In this document: positions 22,024-32,301 of the stretch, piece by piece | Layout: each line of letters begins with the position of its first letter | Numbering within the stretch: position 1 is the first letter of the stretch | Assembly: GCA_016930695.1 (NCBI GenBank) | Contig: JAFGGD010000029.1 | Location: 1 to 49,560, forward strand | Direction of reading: 5' to 3' | Length of the DNA: 49,560 bases | Source: Candidatus Eisenbacteria bacterium | GTDB lineage: Bacteria; Orphanbacterota; Orphanbacteria; Orphanbacterales; Orphanbacteraceae | Position numbers and translations under genes: made by a program | Notes under the pieces: model-generated | What the model was told of the DNA's origin: nothing | Database searches by the model: none | Seen by the model: the letters and a program-made list of their open reading frames with translations, nothing else

Positions 22024-23445
22024 TTATCGCAAATATCCCAGCGCCTCGAGCCTCTCGCGCTCCTCCGGCGAGAGGGAGGCCGCCTCGGTCGCTCCGTACC
22101 CCGCCGCCGCGGAGTCGAGCCGCGCCCGCCACTCCTCGGCGCGCAGGCGAAGCCGCTCCATCTCCTCCGGCATCGCGGCGGCGAGATCCCGAGTCTCCCC
22201 CGGGTCCTCGTCCGTCCGGTAAAGCCTCTCGCCCAATTTCATCGGCATGCGAATGTACTTGAGATCGCCGGCGCCGAGCGCCCAGGAATCGAAGACCCGG
22301 GTCCTCCAGTCGTATCCCTGCCCGATCACGTAGCCGTAATAGGTGATGCGAAGCTCCTGGAATCGTTCTCCCTTCTCTTCCGGCGGCGGATCGAAAAGGG
22401 AGCGCCCCTGCATCTCCGCCGGGGGGCGCACGCCGCAGAGGTCGAGAAGAGTGGGCGCCACGTCCACCGTCGAACCGTTCCGGCCGTCCACGCGCGGCGC
22501 CGCCGCGCCCGCCGGCTTGATCCAGAGAGGCACGTGGACCGATTCGACGTGCAGGCTGTGTTTGTGCCCCTTCGCGCCGTGTTCGAAGAACTCCTCGCCG
22601 TGATCGGCCGTAATGACGATCACCGTGTTCTCCCAGAGCCCTTCCTCCCGGAGGGCGTCGAAGATCCGCCCCAGCATCTCGTCGGTGCAGCGGATCTCCC
22701 CGTCGTAGCGGGCGACGGTCCAATCGAGCCGAGCCTGTTTCATGCCGGGATGGATCTGCGGGTTCCGGTCGAAATCGGAATCATCGAAGGGTTCCATCTC
22801 CGGCGTCGTGAAAAGAGTGTCGTAAGGGGGCGGCGGGAGAAAGTCGTAGTGGATGTCCCAAAAATAGGCGAAGAAAAAGAAAGGCTCCCGCGGCCCGGAG
22901 CGAATGAAGTCGAGGATCTTCGCCTCCATCACCGGGTTCGTCACGTCGCCGTGGGCGGTCTCCTGCTCCACCGAAGAGGGGGAATCGTCCCAAACGGCGA
23001 AACCCTGGTTCAGGTTGTACGGGGTGCGCAGGAAGGGACCGCCGAGAACGGCCTCGGTGTGGTAGCCGCGCTCGGCGAGGATCTCGCCCAGCGTAACGTA
23101 GGAATCGTCGAGACGCTCGTGGGGTTCCCGCACCCGGTGCGTCGACGGATAAAGGCCGGTGAGAATCGTCGCGTGCGAGGGGAGGGTCCAAGAGGTGACG
23201 GAATGGACGTCGCTGAAGCGGACCGCGCTTTCGGCGAAACGGTCCAGGTTCGGGCTCGTCGCCCTCTCGTAGCCGTAGCAGCCGAGATGATCCGCCCGGA
23301 GCGATTCGAGAGTGATCAGGATCACATTCGGGCGCGGTCCGCCGCCGCACCCCGCCGCCGCGAAGGCCACGAGAAGCGACGACGCGGCGAACGCCGCCGC
23401 GCGTCCCCGCGCGCTCCGAAACCGTCCCGCTCTCCTACCGGCCAT
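22024..23445 (-). CDS. Sulfatase-fold (alkaline phosphatase superfamily) lipoprotein
   Basis: The 473-residue product has an N-terminal signal ending LLVAFAAAGCGGG, a probable lipobox. The sulfatase-type hydrolase core follows: NVILITLESLRADHLGCYGY, TSPNLDRFA, SWTLPSHATILTG and VITADHGEEFFEHG with metal-binding Asp and His. The nucleophile motif reads T-L-P-S-H rather than the C/S-x-P-x-R required for formylglycine, so it is probably not a classical sulfatase; a Thr nucleophile recalls LtaS/MdoB-type phosphotransferases. The protein ends in EALGYLR, a tail shared with the neighbour at 23880-25457. The start has GGGGAG upstream. Substrate unknown. Confidence 0.83.
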   Translation of the reverse strand: MAGRRAGRFRSARGRAAAFAASSLLVAFAAAGCGGGPRPNVILITLESLRADHLGCYGYERATSPNLDRFAESAVRFSDVHSVTSWTLPSHATILTGLYPSTHRVREPHERLDDSYVTLGEILAERGYHTEAVLGGPFLRTPYNLNQGFAVWDDSPSSVEQETAHGDVTNPVMEAKILDFIRSGPREPFFFFAYFWDIHYDFLPPPPYDTLFTTPEMEPFDDSDFDRNPQIHPGMKQARLDWTVARYDGEIRCTDEMLGRIFDALREEGLWENTVIVITADHGEEFFEHGAKGHKHSLHVESVHVPLWIKPAGAAAPRVDGRNGSTVDVAPTLLDLCGVRPPAEMQGRSLFDPPPEEKGERFQELRITYYGYVIGQGYDWRTRVFDSWALGAGDLKYIRMPMKLGERLYRTDEDPGETRDLAAAMPEEMERLRLRAEEWRARLDSAAAGYGATEAASLSPEERERLEALGYLR

Positions 23446-23879: not shown

Positions 23880-25457
23880 TCAGGGTTTCCCGTCCTTCTC
23901 CCGCGCGGCGCTCGTTTCGGGCGCCGCCCCGCCGCCGATGTAACCGAGGGCGCGAAGCATCTCCCGATGTTCCTCGGGGAGTTCCGGCGTTTCCGACGAA
24001 TCGCCGAATGCCGCCGCGACGCCGCGTCCCTCCAGCAGCGCGGCGAGCCGCTTCGCCCTCTCCGGCTCCTCGTCCAGCCGGTCCCTCTCCTCGCCGGGAT
24101 CGCCGTCGAGGCGGAAGAGCTTCTTCTCGCCGTCGTCCCAGGCGATCAGCTTCCAGGGCGTCTCCACGACGGCGCGGATCTCACGCTCCCACGGGGCGGA
24201 ATCCCACGCCGGATGGGCGCGCCGCACCTCGTCGAAGGGCTGGCGGAACGGGCCGAGCGACTCCGCGATCCGCGTTCTCTCCGCCGGCGGGGCGAGCAGG
24301 CTCACCGCCCCGCTCCCCTCCGGCGCCGGAGGCCGGTCGATGCCGGCGAGGGCGAGCAACGTAGGGAAGAGATCGCCGGTCATCACCGGCCGCCGGTCCC
24401 GGCCGGGCGGAATTCGACTCGGGTAGCGGATCAGGAGAGGCACGTGAATCAGTTGCTGGTAGAGAGAATACTGGTGGTCCAGCATGTGGTGCTCGCCCAG
24501 ATGTTCGCCGTGGTCGGAAGTGAGAATCACCACCGTGTCGTCCAGCTTCCTTCGCTCGCGGAGCGCTTCGATCAGACCCCGGAAGAGGTCGTCCAACTCG
24601 GCGATGCACGCGTCGTAGGTGCCGGCGGTGACCGAAAGCTCCTCTTCGTCGTACTCCTTCAGCCCGAACGTGTAGCTCCAGAGAGGCGTCCAGGAGCGGT
24701 CCACCTCGTAGGAACGGAGGACCTCCTCCTCCGACATCATCCGGCGCCTGTATTTTTCCGGAGGAATGTAGGGCCGGTGCGCCTCCATATAATTGAGAAA
24801 GGCGAACCAGGGAGCGCCCCCTTCCTCCCGATCGTCGATCCAACGGAAGAGCGCCTCGGCCGCGAGGGCGCCGCTCGCCTTGATGTCCCAAGGACCCACC
24901 CGGGCGGCGCGCACTTTCGGCGGGAGTTCGCTGCTCACGTCCTCCGGGCGGATCTTGCCCGAGACGATCTCCAACGCTCTCTTTTGGAATTCGATCTGCC
25001 AAGGATGTTCCACCGTCTCGAAACCCTGGTCGAACTTCTTCACCTTCGAAATGTGCGGGTTGGCGGACCAAAGGTAGGTGTCGTAGCCGGCGTCCCGGAA
25101 AAGCTCCGCGACGGTGACCAGGTTCTCGCTCAGGAAAGGACGGCTGTTGGTGCAACCGTGGAGCGACGGCGGAAGGCCGGTGAAGAAAGAGGCGTGCGAG
25201 GGGAGGGTGTAGTTCGACTCGGAGAGACAGTCCTCGTAGACGCGGGCGGTTTCCGCCCACTCCTCCAGAAAGGGGGTGGTCGGCCCGCCTCCGTAGAGGC
25301 CGAACCTGTCCGCCCGCGCGGTGTCCCAGACGACCCAGAGGACGTTGGGACGCTTTTCCGCGCCGCCGGAGCAGGAGAGCGCCGCCGGCAAAAGCGCAAA
25401 CAGGAAGAAAATCGCGCCGGTCCTCCCTCGGACGGCTTTTCCGAGACCGATCTTCAA
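23880..25457 (-). CDS. Sulfatase-fold (alkaline phosphatase superfamily) exported protein
   Basis: About 525 residues. The hydrophobic N-terminus ends LPAALSCSGG, suggesting a lipoprotein. Core motifs: NVLWVVWDTARADRFGLYGG, NYTLPSHASFFTG, LTSDHGEHLGEHHMLDH and PLLIRYPSR. The catalytic position again has Thr (T-L-P-S-H) instead of formylglycine-forming Cys or Ser. The C-terminus carries MLRALGYIGG, like the neighbour's ALGYL tail. The start is inferred as TTG 25457 because GGCGGAGGATT precedes it and the signal peptide begins there; the reading frame extends further upstream but is Arg/Pro-rich filler. It is first in a probable operon of four genes. Function unknown, possibly a phosphodiesterase or phosphotransferase. 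Confidence 0.82.
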   Translation of the reverse strand: MKIGLGKAVRGRTGAIFFLFALLPAALSCSGGAEKRPNVLWVVWDTARADRFGLYGGGPTTPFLEEWAETARVYEDCLSESNYTLPSHASFFTGLPPSLHGCTNSRPFLSENLVTVAELFRDAGYDTYLWSANPHISKVKKFDQGFETVEHPWQIEFQKRALEIVSGKIRPEDVSSELPPKVRAARVGPWDIKASGALAAEALFRWIDDREEGGAPWFAFLNYMEAHRPYIPPEKYRRRMMSEEEVLRSYEVDRSWTPLWSYTFGLKEYDEEELSVTAGTYDACIAELDDLFRGLIEALRERRKLDDTVVILTSDHGEHLGEHHMLDHQYSLYQQLIHVPLLIRYPSRIPPGRDRRPVMTGDLFPTLLALAGIDRPPAPEGSGAVSLLAPPAERTRIAESLGPFRQPFDEVRRAHPAWDSAPWEREIRAVVETPWKLIAWDDGEKKLFRLDGDPGEERDRLDEEPERAKRLAALLEGRGVAAAFGDSSETPELPEEHREMLRALGYIGGGAAPETSAAREKDGKP

Positions 25458-25816
25458 GTGAAATCCTCCGCCGGGGGCGGTTCGGACCCGAGAAAGGGCT
25501 CCCGCCCCACTTCCGCGCCGACCCGCGCGGTTCCCCGTTTCCCCGGAACGTTCCAGTCTAGACCGCGGAGGGGGACCGGTCAACCGGGGGGGCGCGAGGA
25601 AGGGTTCGTGAGGGGCGCGGCGCGGCGGGGGCGACCACCTTCCCGGAATCGGGAGCGATCGGGTCGGCGGAGAGGAGCCCTTTCGGACGCGGAACCACGC
25701 GACGAAAAGAGCGTCCGTCGCGCTCCCCCTTTCGCGCCCCGCACGGCGCCGTTCTGATGTATACTTAAACACGATTCCCCCGAGACGCACCCCCGATTCG
25801 ATGAAAGGAGCACTGC
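25458..25816 (+). promoter_or_regulatory. Divergent intergenic region with a -10 element
   Basis: I see no gene in this 359-bp stretch. A -10-like TATACT lies at 25760-25765, about 50 nt before the selenoprotein start, without a good -35. An AAAGGAG ribosome site at 25804-25810 sits 6 nt before the TTG start at 25817 and decides that start. Confidence 0.45.
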
Positions 25817-26851
25817 TTGTTGCGGAGAACCCTCGCGGTTCTCGCCTTCTCCCTGCTGGCGGCTTCCCCCGTCCCCGCCGCGCAGAGGACGTTGCTGGCG
25901 GAGCTGTTCACCAACTACACATGAAGCGGCTGCCTCGCCGTCAAGGACACGCTTCACGCGGTCTTCGACGGCTACGCGGGGCGGGTCGTCCCGATCGAGT
26001 ATCACGTCGCATGGCCGATGCCGACCGATCCCGGCTACCTCTTCAATCCGGGCGACGTGAACGGGCGCGTGAACTTCTACCGCGTCACGGAAATCCCCAA
26101 GCTGTTCCTGGACGGGACCGTCGAGGTCTCCCCCTGGCCGATTTCCGATTTCGGCGCTCGGGTGCGCGCCGCCGTGGACACCCTCCTTCTCCGGCCGAGC
26201 CCCCTCCGGATCCACATGACGCAGACCGCCGGACCCGATTCGGTGCGGGTCCTTTTCGACGTCGCCGCGCCGGAAGATCCGGGCACGGCGGAGCAGAGAC
26301 TCTTCCTTGCCGTCACCGAGATCTGCCACGACTACGGCGGCGAGGTCTACCGCAACCTCTTCCGCGATTTCCTCCCCGACTCTCTCGGCCGGGTGCTGCA
26401 TCTCGCGAAGAACGATTCGGTCTCCTTCGATTGGAGTTACCCGATCGATCCGGAGTACGAGCCGGAGATGCTGGTGACGGCCCTCTATCTACAGGACCCG
26501 CGCGATTTTGGGGTGTTTCAGGCGGCCTCCGACGCGGTCGGCGTCCCGACACGCGTCGCGACCGGCGCTCCGGCCGCGGTTCGTCTCCTCGGCAACGCGC
26601 CGAACCCCTTCAATCCGACGACGACGGTCCGGTTCGCAATGGATCGCGCGGGGCCGGTCCGACTTTCCGTGATCGATCCGGCGGGGCGGCTCGTGACGGT
26701 GCTCCTCAATCGTTCCCTCGGCACGGGGGAGCACGCCGTGACGTGGGACGGGAGGGACCGCTCCGGCCGTCCGGCGGCGAGCGGCGTCTACCTTCTCCGC
26801 CTCGAAGGGGACGGAGCCTCCGGCGCCCGCAAGATGACCCTCCTTCGCTGA
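25817..26851 (+). CDS. Exported thioredoxin-fold selenoprotein (UxxC), Omp28-like, with C-terminal sorting-type domain
   Basis: The gene reads through an in-frame TGA at 25922-25924, decoded here as selenocysteine (residue 36), giving 344 residues. Residues 1-22 are a signal peptide (LAVLAFSLLAASPVPAA). Then comes LAELFTNYT-U-SGCLAVKD: Omp28-like and thioredoxin-like proteins have a CxxC here, so Sec replaces the first, nucleophilic Cys and Cys39 is the partner. A cis-Pro-type strand, TEIPKLFLDGT, supports a thioredoxin fold. Residues about 248-344 are a FlgD/type IX-type domain (APNPFNPTTTVRF, TWDGRDRSGR, ASGVYLLRL). The TTG start is set by AAAGGAG. A pseudogene or sequencing error is possible but less likely, since the frame is otherwise intact and a second TGA-for-Cys gene lies nearby. 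Predicted: an extracytoplasmic thiol-disulfide or peroxide reductase. Confidence 0.82.
25937..25972 (+). promoter_or_regulatory. Candidate SECIS hairpin of the thioredoxin-fold selenoprotein
   Basis: Begins 12 nt after the TGA. GCCGUC (25937-25942) pairs with GACGGC (25967-25972). After one A-C mismatch the stem continues through A-U, G-U, G-C, A-U and C-G, a bulged A at 25949, and CGC/GCG, closing on UUCAC (25953-25957), 28 nt from the TGA. Spacing fits bacterial SECIS elements, but the loop lacks the usual leading G, so the assignment is tentative. A smaller alternative is CGGC-UGCCUC-GCCG at 25927-25940. Confidence 0.45.
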
Positions 26852-26857
26852 TCCCCC

Positions 26858-26886
26858 TTCCGCGCCGCTCCGGGCGCTGCTACAAT
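26858..26886 (+). promoter_or_regulatory. Putative extended -10 promoter for the beta-barrel gene
   Basis: TTCCGC (26858-26863), a 17-nt spacer and TACAAT (26881-26886) preceded by TGC, the same TGCTACAAT as at 10898-10906. It lies about 64 nt upstream of the start at 26950. Confidence 0.5.
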
Positions 26887-26949
26887 CCCTTCGACCGTGA
26901 AAGGGAAAGGACCTCGACACCCCCCCTTCTCTCGGAGGAAACGAACGTG

Positions 26950-27588
26950 ATGCAACGCGTACTCGCCGCAGCGGCCGTGGCGGCGCTTCTCTTCGGCGCC
27001 GTCCCGGCGGACGCGCTTCTGAAGACCGGCGTCTCGGCCGGAATGAACTTCTCCTCCCTGGGCGACGTGAAGGTGACGGACTACGAGACCACATACGACA
27101 GCCGGACCGGCTGGCACATCGGCGTCTTCGGCGCCGGCGACCTCGGTCCGATCGGCGTGCGCGCCGGGCTTCTTTACACCGACGCGGGCGCCCTCTTCGA
27201 CGGGATCGGCGACACCCCCGGGCTCCCGGCGGACTTCAAGGAGGACTTCCGGGTCCGATACATCGCCCTGCCGATCGATTTTCAGTGGCGCTTCGTGCTG
27301 CCGCCGATCCGCCCCTATCTGCTCGCCGGCCCGGAGTTCCGCTACGACCTCACGTCCGACGACGCCTTCGAGGGGAACATCAAAAAAACGACCCTTGCCG
27401 CCAACATCGGCGTCGGCCTGGAACTGGGGCTTCCCCTCCTGGGCGTTTCGGTCACGCCGGAGATTCGATACTGTTTCGACCTGCAGGAAATCACCGACAA
27501 GACCCTCGAGATCGGCGGAGTCGGATTCGAGACCGACGGCGCCTACAAAGGGAGCGCATGGGTTTTTCGCCTCCACGTCGGGTTCTGA
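26950..27588 (+). CDS. Outer-membrane beta-barrel protein (PorT/OmpW-like size)
   Basis: The 212-residue product has a signal peptide (MQRVLAAAAVAALLFGAVPADA) and then alternating hydrophobic/aromatic beta-strand pattern such as KTGVSAGMNFSSLG, GVRAGLLYTDAG, YIALPIDFQWRFV, RPYLLAGPEFRYDL and a C-terminal strand ending AWVFRLHVGF, with the terminal Phe typical of outer-membrane barrels. It fits the 8-strand PorT/outer-membrane protein beta-barrel family. The start is ATG 26950 or the in-frame GTG 26947; GGAGG at 26934-26938 suits either. The next gene starts 1 bp after the stop. It lies between two selenoprotein genes, but no functional link is proven. Confidence 0.82.
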   Translation: MQRVLAAAAVAALLFGAVPADALLKTGVSAGMNFSSLGDVKVTDYETTYDSRTGWHIGVFGAGDLGPIGVRAGLLYTDAGALFDGIGDTPGLPADFKEDFRVRYIALPIDFQWRFVLPPIRPYLLAGPEFRYDLTSDDAFEGNIKKTTLAANIGVGLELGLPLLGVSVTPEIRYCFDLQEITDKTLEIGGVGFETDGAYKGSAWVFRLHVGF

Positions 27589-29316: not shown

Positions 29317-29466
29317 CACGGGGGGGCGGGTCGTCGATCCGCCCCTCTCTTGTTTACCCGAAAAGGACCGGGGGAGAGCCTCGCGGCGGGATGGACGGCC
29401 CTTCGGTCGGGGATTCTCTTTTCGCGAACGATGGGAGCGGAAGAGAGCAGGCACCGAAGAGCGAGA

Positions 29467-29856
29467 TCACCGCGTCTCCTCGCGCTCCCTCTCCGCGCGC
29501 CGCAACATCGCGAGGGTGGCCCCCCATCCCCCGCGTTCGGGAGGCGCCTGGCCGAAACGGACCACGCGGGGATCCCTCTTCAGAAAGTCCCACACCTCCC
29601 GGCGGAGAACACTCCTCCCTTTGCCGTGAATGATCCGCACCTCGACGATCCCGAGGCGCTCCGCGCCGGCGAGGAATTCCTCCATCACCTCGGGAATCTG
29701 CTCCGGGAAAAAACCGTGGAGGTCGAGAACGTCCGTCACCACGATTTCCCCGGAGGGTTCCCCGTCCCCCTCATCGTCCGGGGCGCGTTCCCTACCTCGC
29801 GGGGCGCGCCTTTCCCCGCCGGCCAGGAACCCGCGCAGTCTATCGAGAAATCCCAT
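29467..29856 (-). CDS. Smr-domain (MutS2 C-terminal-like) protein
   Basis: The 129-residue product has a basic/acidic N-terminal linker and a C-terminal Smr domain (about 45-129): VLDLHGFFPEQIPEVMEEFL, VRIIHGKGRSVLRREVW and FLKRDPRVVRFGQAP, with the LDLHG and HGKG signatures. Smr domains bind or nick branched nucleic acids or cleave stalled mRNA. I chose ATG 29856 because GGAGGGACGGCG precedes it; the longer frame upstream is Arg-rich. It is divergent from the carboxypeptidase gene. Confidence 0.88.
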   Translation of the reverse strand: MGFLDRLRGFLAGGERRAPRGRERAPDDEGDGEPSGEIVVTDVLDLHGFFPEQIPEVMEEFLAGAERLGIVEVRIIHGKGRSVLRREVWDFLKRDPRVVRFGQAPPERGGWGATLAMLRRAEREREETR

Positions 29857-29890
29857 CGCCGTCCCTCCGCCGCGCCGGCGGCCGTCCTTC

Positions 29891-29919
29891 AGTATACGCC
29901 CTCGCTTCCGGGGCGCGAA
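29891..29919 (-). promoter_or_regulatory. Putative promoter for the Smr gene
   Basis: On the minus strand: TTCGCG (29914-29919), a 17-nt spacer and TATACT (29891-29896). It nearly overlaps the divergent plus-strand -10 at 29925. Confidence 0.4.
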
Positions 29920-29924
29920 TGTTG

Positions 29925-29930
29925 TATAAT
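29925..29930 (+). promoter_or_regulatory. Consensus -10 for the secreted carboxypeptidase gene
   Basis: Perfect TATAAT about 100 nt before ATG 30031; no clear -35 is visible (TCGCTT at the right distance). The surrounding sequence is locally AT-rich. Confidence 0.5.
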
Positions 29931-30030
29931 AATTGGGCGCGCGTGGTTGCGCGACCCCACCTCGTCCCGCGCGCCGAGACCGCTCTCCCATGATCCCCCG
30001 ACGATCCCTAGAGTGCGAAGGAGAATCGAT

Positions 30031-32301
30031 ATGCCCCGCAGCCGCCTCATCACCCGAGCGCTACCCGCTCTGACTCTCCTCCTCTTCCTGTTTTCCTCCC
30101 TAGCCGCCGGCGGCGAGATCCACAAGGTGATCCGGATCGATTTCTCCCAAAAGGAGGCGATCCGCGATCTTCTCCGCGAGAACCGGGACGTGGCCGACTA
30201 CCGGCCGGACACCGGCCTCACTCTCGTCGCCAACGAGGCGGAACTCGCCGAGTTCGCCGCCCGCGGCATCCGTTATGAGGTGCTGCGCGAGGACCTCGGC
30301 GCGGCGCTCGGCGCCCTCTTCGAGCCGGAGACCCGCGCCCTGGACGCGGCCTACCACACCTATGCCGAGATCGACGCGGCCTTCGACAGCCTGGTCGCCC
30401 TCTATCCGACCCTCGCGGAGAGGCACGACCTGGGCGACAGTTGGGAGGCCCGCGACATTTTCGCCCTCAAGATCTCCGACAACGTCTCCCTCGACGAGGG
30501 GGAACCGGAGGCGATGATCATGGGGTGCCACCACGCCCGGGAGATCATCAGCGTGGAGATGCCCTATCTCTTCGCCGAGTACCTTCTCGACAACTACGGA
30601 ACGGACTCTCTCGTCACGGCCCTCGTCGACGAGCGGGAGATCTGGATCGTGCCGATGATCAATCCCGACGGCCACCAGTACGTGGTGGACGTGGGCGACT
30701 GGCGCAAAAACCGGCGGAACAACGGCGACGGCACCTACGGCGTCGACCTGAACCGGAACTGGCCTTACATGTGGGGGCTCGACGACGTCGGATCCAGCCC
30801 CAACACCTACAGCGAAACCTACCGCGGTCCCTCCGCCGGTTCGGAGCCGGAGCTCCAGGCGCTGATGACGCTCTTCCAGGCGAAGGAGTTCGCCACCTGC
30901 CTCTCCTTCCACAGCCACGGCCGCATGTACCTCTATCCCTGGGGCTACGCCTCGATCCAAACCGAGGACGACGACGCCTTCGCGGCGATCGGCGACAGCC
31001 TGGCGGCGCACAACGACTACGACCCCGGCTCGACCTACACGGGGCTCATCTACCTCACCAACGGCGGGAGCGACGACTGGGCCTACGGCGACTCCACCAA
31101 GCCCGCCTGCTTCAGCATCACGCCGGAGATCGGCGACCAGTTCGACACGCCCGCCTCCTTGATCCCGGTGCACTTCGCCGAGCAACTCCCGGCGATGCTC
31201 TTCATGGTCCGGATCGCCGATGATCCTTATCGCTTCAAGATTCCGGCCCGACCCGTCATCGCCTCGCTGCCGGACGACGAGGACGGCGACTACGCCGTGA
31301 GCTGGGCCCTCGGCGCGGGGGGCGACTCCGACGTGGTCTCTTACGAGCTGGTCGAAGCGACCGGCGAGTCGATCGTGCTCGACAGCGCCGAGTTCGGCCT
31401 GGGCGATTGGCTCACCGACAACTGGACATGGAACGACGAGAGGAAACACTCCGGGTCGTACAGCTTCTACTCCGGCACGGGGGACGAGTACTCCGCGGCT
31501 TTAGAGGCGCCGCATCCCATCGACGTGGAGGCGGGCGACTCCCTCACCTTCTGGGGATGGTGGCGCGTGGAGAACGAGTGGGACTACTGGTACGTGGAGA
31601 TCTCCGAGGACGGCGGCGCTTCCTGGGCGCCCATCCCGGGGAGTTACACCACCGACGTGGACCCGAACGGCAACAACCGGGGGAACGGGATCACCGGCGC
31701 CTCCGGCGGCTGGTTCCCCCTCGCCTTCGACCTGAGCGACTACGCCGGGGAGAGCATCCGGATCCGTTTCCACTACGTGACCGACCAGCTGACCAACCTC
31801 CGCGGGGTGCAGGTGGACGACATCCATCCCGTTCGCCTCTTCGCCGAGGTCGACACTCTGGACGACGCGATCCCCACCGCCTCGTACGACGTGACCGGCC
31901 GCACCGAAGGGGACTGGTTCTACTGGGTGCGCGCCCGGGACGCGGAGGCGCAGACCGGTTTTTGGAGCGACCCGGCGAAGGTGACGGTGCTCCCCTCCAC
32001 CGGCGTAGCGGCCGGCGCGCCCGCGGCGACCCGCCTCGGCCGGAACCGCCCCAACCCCTTCAACCCATCCACCGTCATCTCCTGGTCGCTGGCGCGGCCC
32101 GGAAACGTCTCCCTTTCGATTCACGACGTTTCGGGGCGTCTTGTGCGGACGCTCGTGCGCGGCGCGAGAGACGCCGGTGATCAGGAAACGGTTTGGGACG
32201 GCCGCGACGACCGGGGGGGCGCCGTCGCCTCGGGAGTCTACTTTTACAGGTTGCGCGCCGGCGCGTTCACCGAGACGCGCAAGCTGGTGCTGCTGAAGTA
32301 A
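30031..32301 (+). CDS. Secreted M14 zinc carboxypeptidase with C-terminal sorting-type domain
   Basis: The 756-residue product has a signal peptide (about 1-28, ending LAAGGEI), an N-terminal propeptide-like region, and an M14 catalytic domain. Zinc ligands are His168 and Glu171 in GCHHAREIISVE, with the third His in LSFHSHGRMYLYPW (His294 or His296). NPDGHQY, RKNRRNNGDGTYGVDLNRNW and the catalytic Glu in ITPEIGDQF complete the site. A beta-sandwich region follows (about 455-620). Residues about 665-756 are a FlgD/type IX-type domain (NRPNPFNPSTVISW, VWDGRDDRGG, ASGVYFYRL). It removes C-terminal residues from extracellular peptides. ATG 30031 follows AAGGAG. A terminator follows. Confidence 0.93.
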   Translation: MPRSRLITRALPALTLLLFLFSSLAAGGEIHKVIRIDFSQKEAIRDLLRENRDVADYRPDTGLTLVANEAELAEFAARGIRYEVLREDLGAALGALFEPETRALDAAYHTYAEIDAAFDSLVALYPTLAERHDLGDSWEARDIFALKISDNVSLDEGEPEAMIMGCHHAREIISVEMPYLFAEYLLDNYGTDSLVTALVDEREIWIVPMINPDGHQYVVDVGDWRKNRRNNGDGTYGVDLNRNWPYMWGLDDVGSSPNTYSETYRGPSAGSEPELQALMTLFQAKEFATCLSFHSHGRMYLYPWGYASIQTEDDDAFAAIGDSLAAHNDYDPGSTYTGLIYLTNGGSDDWAYGDSTKPACFSITPEIGDQFDTPASLIPVHFAEQLPAMLFMVRIADDPYRFKIPARPVIASLPDDEDGDYAVSWALGAGGDSDVVSYELVEATGESIVLDSAEFGLGDWLTDNWTWNDERKHSGSYSFYSGTGDEYSAALEAPHPIDVEAGDSLTFWGWWRVENEWDYWYVEISEDGGASWAPIPGSYTTDVDPNGNNRGNGITGASGGWFPLAFDLSDYAGESIRIRFHYVTDQLTNLRGVQVDDIHPVRLFAEVDTLDDAIPTASYDVTGRTEGDWFYWVRARDAEAQTGFWSDPAKVTVLPSTGVAAGAPAATRLGRNRPNPFNPSTVISWSLARPGNVSLSIHDVSGRLVRTLVRGARDAGDQETVWDGRDDRGGAVASGVYFYRLRAGAFTETRKLVLLK

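Follow-up and report, generated by a model that had tools for sequence, protein, structure and literature searches.

Is the single TGA that interrupts a reading frame in this stretch of DNA (49,560 nucleotides, hereafter the window) read as selenocysteine (Sec), and if so, what kind of protein carries it and where would that protein act? Direct reading of the sequence bears out the intact frame described in an earlier note: 25817-26851 encodes 344 residues plus stop, with TGA 25922-25924 as its sole internal break. The translation begins LLRRTLAVLAFSLLAASPVPAAQRTLLAELFTNYT-U-SGC. Its N terminus, LLRRTLAVLAFSLLAASPVPAA, resembles a signal peptide and is followed by QRTLLAELFTNYT-TGA-SGC, after which the frame stays open up to TGA 26849-26851. 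The internal TGA is residue 36 and occupies the first position of a U-S-G-C motif. The strong ribosome site that had been claimed is also present, and the features of the locus are collected in Table 1. From the sequence comparisons below, we consider it very probable that the product of this gene is a selenoprotein, exported and carrying Sec as residue 36.

The mechanical list of open reading frames gives 26018..26851 (277 aa), in agreement with the earlier expectation that a standard gene caller would begin at 26018 and thereby lose the active site. Two sulfatase genes on the minus strand (window positions 22024-23445 and 23880-25790) adjoin the gene, which lies on the plus strand. No operon partner is evident among the flanking genes (sulfatases, a beta-barrel and an inositol monophosphatase), none of which points to a partner, substrate or reductant.

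Table 1. Features of the putative selenoprotein locus, in window coordinates.
Feature	Position	Strand	Basis and remarks
Ribosome binding site AAAGGAG	25804..25810	+	6 nt 5' of TTG 25817; read in sequence
Putative selenoprotein gene, 344 residues plus stop	25817..26851	+	Start TTG 25817 or next codon TTG 25820
Predicted Sec-type signal peptide, residues 1-22, ...PVPAA/QR	25817..25882	+	Sequence; equivalent hydrophobic N-termini in homologues; residues 1-6 low pLDDT
Predicted thioredoxin-fold domain, residues ~24-124, cis-Pro candidate P94	25886..26188	+	AlphaFold pLDDT 92-98; profile and fold searches
Putative selenocysteine codon TGA, residue 36, first of U-S-G-C	25922..25924	+	Sequence and homologue column
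Codon TGC of Cys39, putative resolving residue	25931..25933	+	Sequence; column invariant in alignment
Candidate bacterial SECIS hairpin	25937..25972	+	Apical loop ~28 nt past TGA; loop UUCAC without consensus G
Predicted beta-sandwich of Omp28-like domain, residues ~131-240	26207..26536	+	AlphaFold model; profile search retrieves 2r2c (Omp28) and 5y1a (HBP35)
C-terminal FlgD_ig / T9SS type A sorting-like domain (Ig-like, beta), residues ~255-344	26579..26848	+	Pfam/TIGR matches, AlphaFold model

Predicted fold, tail and destination

The AlphaFold2 model, built on a 61-row alignment, has a mean pLDDT of 87.6. In the model, the N-terminal domain adopts the beta-alpha-beta-alpha-beta-beta-alpha core of a thioredoxin fold (strands, E, and helices, H: E26-32, H37-51, E57-63, H72-88, E95-98, E102-104, H109-124), with the motif in the CxxC position at helix 1, Sec36 at the start of that helix, and the invariant P94, a candidate cis-Pro, preceding strand 3. 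The core is modelled over residues 26-124, the beta-sandwich over 131-240 and the C-terminal beta domain over 255-342. Foldseek returns HBP35 of P. gingivalis as the best solved match (5y1a; E 5.8e-14, TM 0.56 by query, rmsd 13.4), the large rmsd indicating that the domain arrangement of the two proteins differs. A search with the family profile retrieves HBP35, Omp28 (2r2c, E 7e-6) and thioredoxins. By itself the window protein reaches 12.9 bits against Pfam PF11551 (Omp28), below the gathering score of 34.9; the match to the Omp28-like fold proposed earlier is weak for the lone protein and becomes clear with the family profile. Export, also proposed earlier, is indicated by the predicted signal peptide and by equivalent N-termini in homologues, so that both fold and export are supported by prediction.

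A sorting-like domain, as expected, is found at the C terminus, which matches FlgD_ig at 33.4 bits (cut-off 27) and narrowly misses the T9SS type A model TIGR04183 (22.7 bits, cut-off 23). L003 and L009 pass the latter cut-off. The tail could instead be a structural Ig-like domain devoid of a type IX signal, in which case the selenoprotein would be periplasmic and engage in Dsb-like disulfide exchange. FlgD_ig being the better Pfam match and the type IX model being missed by 0.3 bits would fit such a protein, as would the easier access to reductant in the periplasm (DsbD-type systems). Against it, two homologue tails score 32.2 and 25.6 on the type IX model, the SprA translocon is present in 7/7 genomes of the phylum (G000:C45 in the window genome, 527 bits with neighbours), and similar tails occur at ~120 other places in the window genome (124 matches in the search total), for example in a carboxypeptidase-like protein at 29350-32301. 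HBP35 also provides a precedent for export by type IX secretion. We thus hold a periplasmic protein to be unlikely, though the most serious of the alternatives, and regard type IX display of the selenoprotein at the cell surface as reasonably probable. A literature search found no paper with a selenoprotein as type IX cargo, the one paper touching both topics being unrelated.

The active-site column across genomes

Full-length homologues in G005 and G006 are ~41% identical to the window protein (3e-72 to 7e-72). Within the window's phylum (7 genomes searched), the Omp28-like domain carries a TGA in 8 genes, the window gene included, and a Calditrichota/LCP-89-type phylum (39 genomes searched) contributes 23 more, in 13 genomes, L105 among them. 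In all, 31 distinct homologous genes from two phylum-level groups have the domain's only in-frame TGA at the identical column. With all matches mapped on the profile, the codons at this column are TGA in 33 rows (the 31 distinct genes), TGC in 82 and TGT in 35, so that the mixture of TGA and Cys codons that the earlier note named as support for Sec at residue 36 is indeed found, with TGA taking the first place in the thioredoxin motif, where other homologues have Cys. The second Cys is kept in 32/33 TGA rows. In one TGA row, L195 (G048:C6), the second Cys is displaced (UGPNC) and the motif may be U-x-x-x-C. The column holds Asp in L158 and Ser in L107, possibly inactive forms.

That 31 genes should have a TGA at one fixed column of ~240 cannot be put down to chance, and its recurrence in independent genomes means that it is not a sequencing error for TGC or TGT, a concern of the earlier note. 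The same observations weigh against the possibility that translation really ends at the TGA (through a nonsense mutation, in a pseudogene or by an error in sequencing) and that only a truncated protein, begun at 26018, is made. Although the standard ORF does begin at 26018, the same codon stands in the same column in genes of many genomes, the downstream frame is intact and conserved, and according to the model the shorter product would lose the first strand of the thioredoxin fold together with its active-site helix. A true stop is accordingly very improbable.

Cys forms are found alongside the Sec forms. The window genome itself encodes L009 (G000:C54:42221-43258), a tailed Cys form (FTNTACPSC) 41% identical to the window protein; L005 in G004 is another tailed Cys form, and untailed Cys paralogues are present as well (L064-L069). 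A profile scan of genome contigs recovered Cys homologues in Fermentibacteria, Bacteroidetes and LCP-89, together with L105, a homologue with TGA that belongs to a Calditrichaeota MAG. Plasmid records gave a match to the tail alone and no other. In a tree of 100 domains, parsimony gives 9 Sec/Cys changes, at least 4 of them forced by well-supported (starred) branches, figures that are approximate because the search was quick. The branch of the window gene is long and falls inside a group of 9 rows from its own phylum in which Sec and Cys forms are mixed.

Several observations concern the carriers. The 23 TGA Omp28-like genes in 13 genomes of the phylum of G007 (L105, L143, L160-L202) include many long proteins with PNPF-type tails. 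L070 and L071 come from a record (JAGUYC01, DeMMO4_6) labelled Gemmatimonadetes that nevertheless falls in the window's phylum, and the label may be outdated. Prevotella loci such as L094, L096 and L112 have tandem pairs of Omp28-like genes, ~1.3 kb apart.

Decoding of the TGA codon

The window genome (G000; 3.78 Mb, 96% complete) contains the entire Sec machinery that the earlier note had called for: selA (TIGR00474, 531 bits), selB (TIGR00475, 368 bits, cut-off 242), selD (TIGR00476, 397 bits, cut-off 125) and a tRNA-Sec (Rfam RF01852, 71.6 bits), which ARAGORN also assigns as SeC with a TCA anticodon in DNA (UCA in the tRNA). SelA scores above cut-off in 13/13 Calditrichota-type genomes with a TGA copy, but since 34/39 genomes of that phylum overall have it, its presence there does not discriminate. 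SelA was not found in G001 and G006, though both carry TGA copies; both assemblies are fragmented and incomplete, and their respective sister genomes, G002 and G005, have SelA. Eight genomes (G007, G008, G026-G029, G052, G053) each have two SelA-like genes. A recoded genetic code, with TGA read as Trp or another ordinary residue, would account for a TGA in frame, but is extremely improbable given that TGA terminates this gene and three neighbouring genes, that the sole in-frame TGA falls on the Cys column, and that the Sec system of the genome is complete, its tRNA-Sec having a UCA anticodon. Comparison of sequences establishes the Sec codon, the Sec machinery and the exchange of Cys and Sec in this family.

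The bacterial SECIS consensus has a loop of 3-9 nt with a G among its first two nucleotides, and a spacing of 16-37 nt (PMC13188914). Counting hairpins of <= -7.5 kcal/mol under these published constraints, a SECIS-like hairpin is found in 22/31 TGA genes (71%) versus 11% of Cys genes (Mann-Whitney p 7e-5). Hairpins better than synonymous-codon shuffles at about p 0.1 occur in 55% of TGA genes and zero Cys genes, a comparison that is rough because it uses 20 shuffles each and related sequences. Under the published constraints the window gene has no hairpin, and neither have the four TGA genes closest to it or L105, L193, L196 and L199. Inspection revealed a longer stem (window 25937-25972) that the window gene has in common with those four closest genes; the 71 nt at 25910-25980 fold with a z of -3.2, 1 of 200 shuffles being as good. 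Covariation across the 5 sequences of this clade is slight, with a single compensated pair in the part of the stem that was counted, no more than shuffled sequences give, and an Rfam search of 25700-27000 gave no SECIS model match, only sub-threshold chance matches. The window gene's own SECIS hairpin is likely, though not canonical: it is stable and suitably spaced from the TGA but has no consensus G.

These elements suggest a mechanism. SelB and Sec-tRNA(UCA) would decode UGA 25922 as Sec, with a hairpin just 3' of the codon, and the signal peptide would lead the protein into export via the Sec pathway. The C-terminal Ig-like domain would most likely then pass it on to the type IX system, which, as with HBP35, would display the protein on the cell surface or release it. 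There Sec36 and Cys39 would together form a thiol/selenol-disulfide oxidoreductase in which Sec36 attacks and Cys39 resolves. The surface location and the redox chemistry (disulfide exchange) of the selenoprotein are inferred.

Relatives of the selenoprotein and what they imply

An Omp28-related, thioredoxin-like selenoprotein with UxxC, GOS_C, has been on record as a prediction since 2008, based on 74 sequences of marine origin (PMC2398784). A 2026 review lists 'hypothetical protein GOS_C' in its Table 1 and equates it with the NCBIfam model NF045500, 'Omp28_seleno', an Omp28-related selenoprotein (PMC13188914). The window gene's family resembles it in the Omp28-type thioredoxin-like domain, the UxxC motif and the existence of Cys homologues, and positions ~34-277 of the NF045500 model align to the window gene's family. 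The scores differ, however: the window gene reaches 17.6 bits and its family 17.6 to 54.9, whereas the cut-off is 200, a score not attained by any gene of the 17 genomes tested, the phylum's 7 included. Model positions 270-312 resemble thrombospondin type 3 repeats of other proteins, whereas the window gene has an FlgD/type IX-like domain instead. The settings differ as well, GOS_C coming from marine metagenomes and G006, a near relative here, being a DeMMO metagenome-assembled genome. Because the alignment scores just 17.6 against 200 bits, we class the window gene as a divergent variant and not as a member of NF045500. The set L105/L143/L160-L202 is likewise a large selenoprotein group scoring under this cut-off. 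The earlier note knew of no selenoprotein combining an Omp28-like thioredoxin fold with such a C-terminal domain; insofar as this suggests that no Omp28-like selenoprotein had been described, it does not hold in light of GOS_C and NF045500, but the combination of Sec with this tail remains new. None of the papers covered by our literature search named Omp28 together with selenoproteins or selenocysteine.

HBP35, the best solved match by both fold and profile, resembles the window protein in architecture, its thioredoxin domain being N-terminal and its type IX domain C-terminal. Its thioredoxin activity depends on its two cysteines (PMC2907840), and it is exported by the Por/type IX system (PMC3120885). 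It differs in having Cys where the window protein would have Sec, and the identity in the fold alignment is 13%. HBP35 is also known to bind hemin. The Omp28 outer membrane lipoprotein (PF11551, NF033782; 2r2c) belongs to the same domain family by profile. The untailed CxxC paralogues in these genomes fit NF033782 better (L066, 57.8 bits); unlike the window gene, they have neither Sec nor a sorting tail.

Our verdict, drawn from sequence, is that the window gene most probably encodes a genuine selenoprotein, a divergent variant of the Omp28-related selenoproteins with the architecture of HBP35. The family concerned was previously known just in outline, and the window gene is a divergent branch of it. 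What is new here is the divergent subfamily, its carriers and the joining of Sec to such a tail. On balance, we lean towards a broad, unlisted group of surface-displayed Sec thioredoxins that use type IX secretion in several little-known phyla, with repeated Sec/Cys exchange. As gene callers lose the active site of the whole group, its members are likely mis-annotated wherever present, and NF045500 could be broadened to take in the window gene's group. Repeated Sec/Cys exchange in one fold, with both forms in one genome, is a good natural test of selenocysteine retention. If the protein is surface-displayed, it would bring selenium chemistry to the outside of the cell in bacteria that are uncultured and little known.
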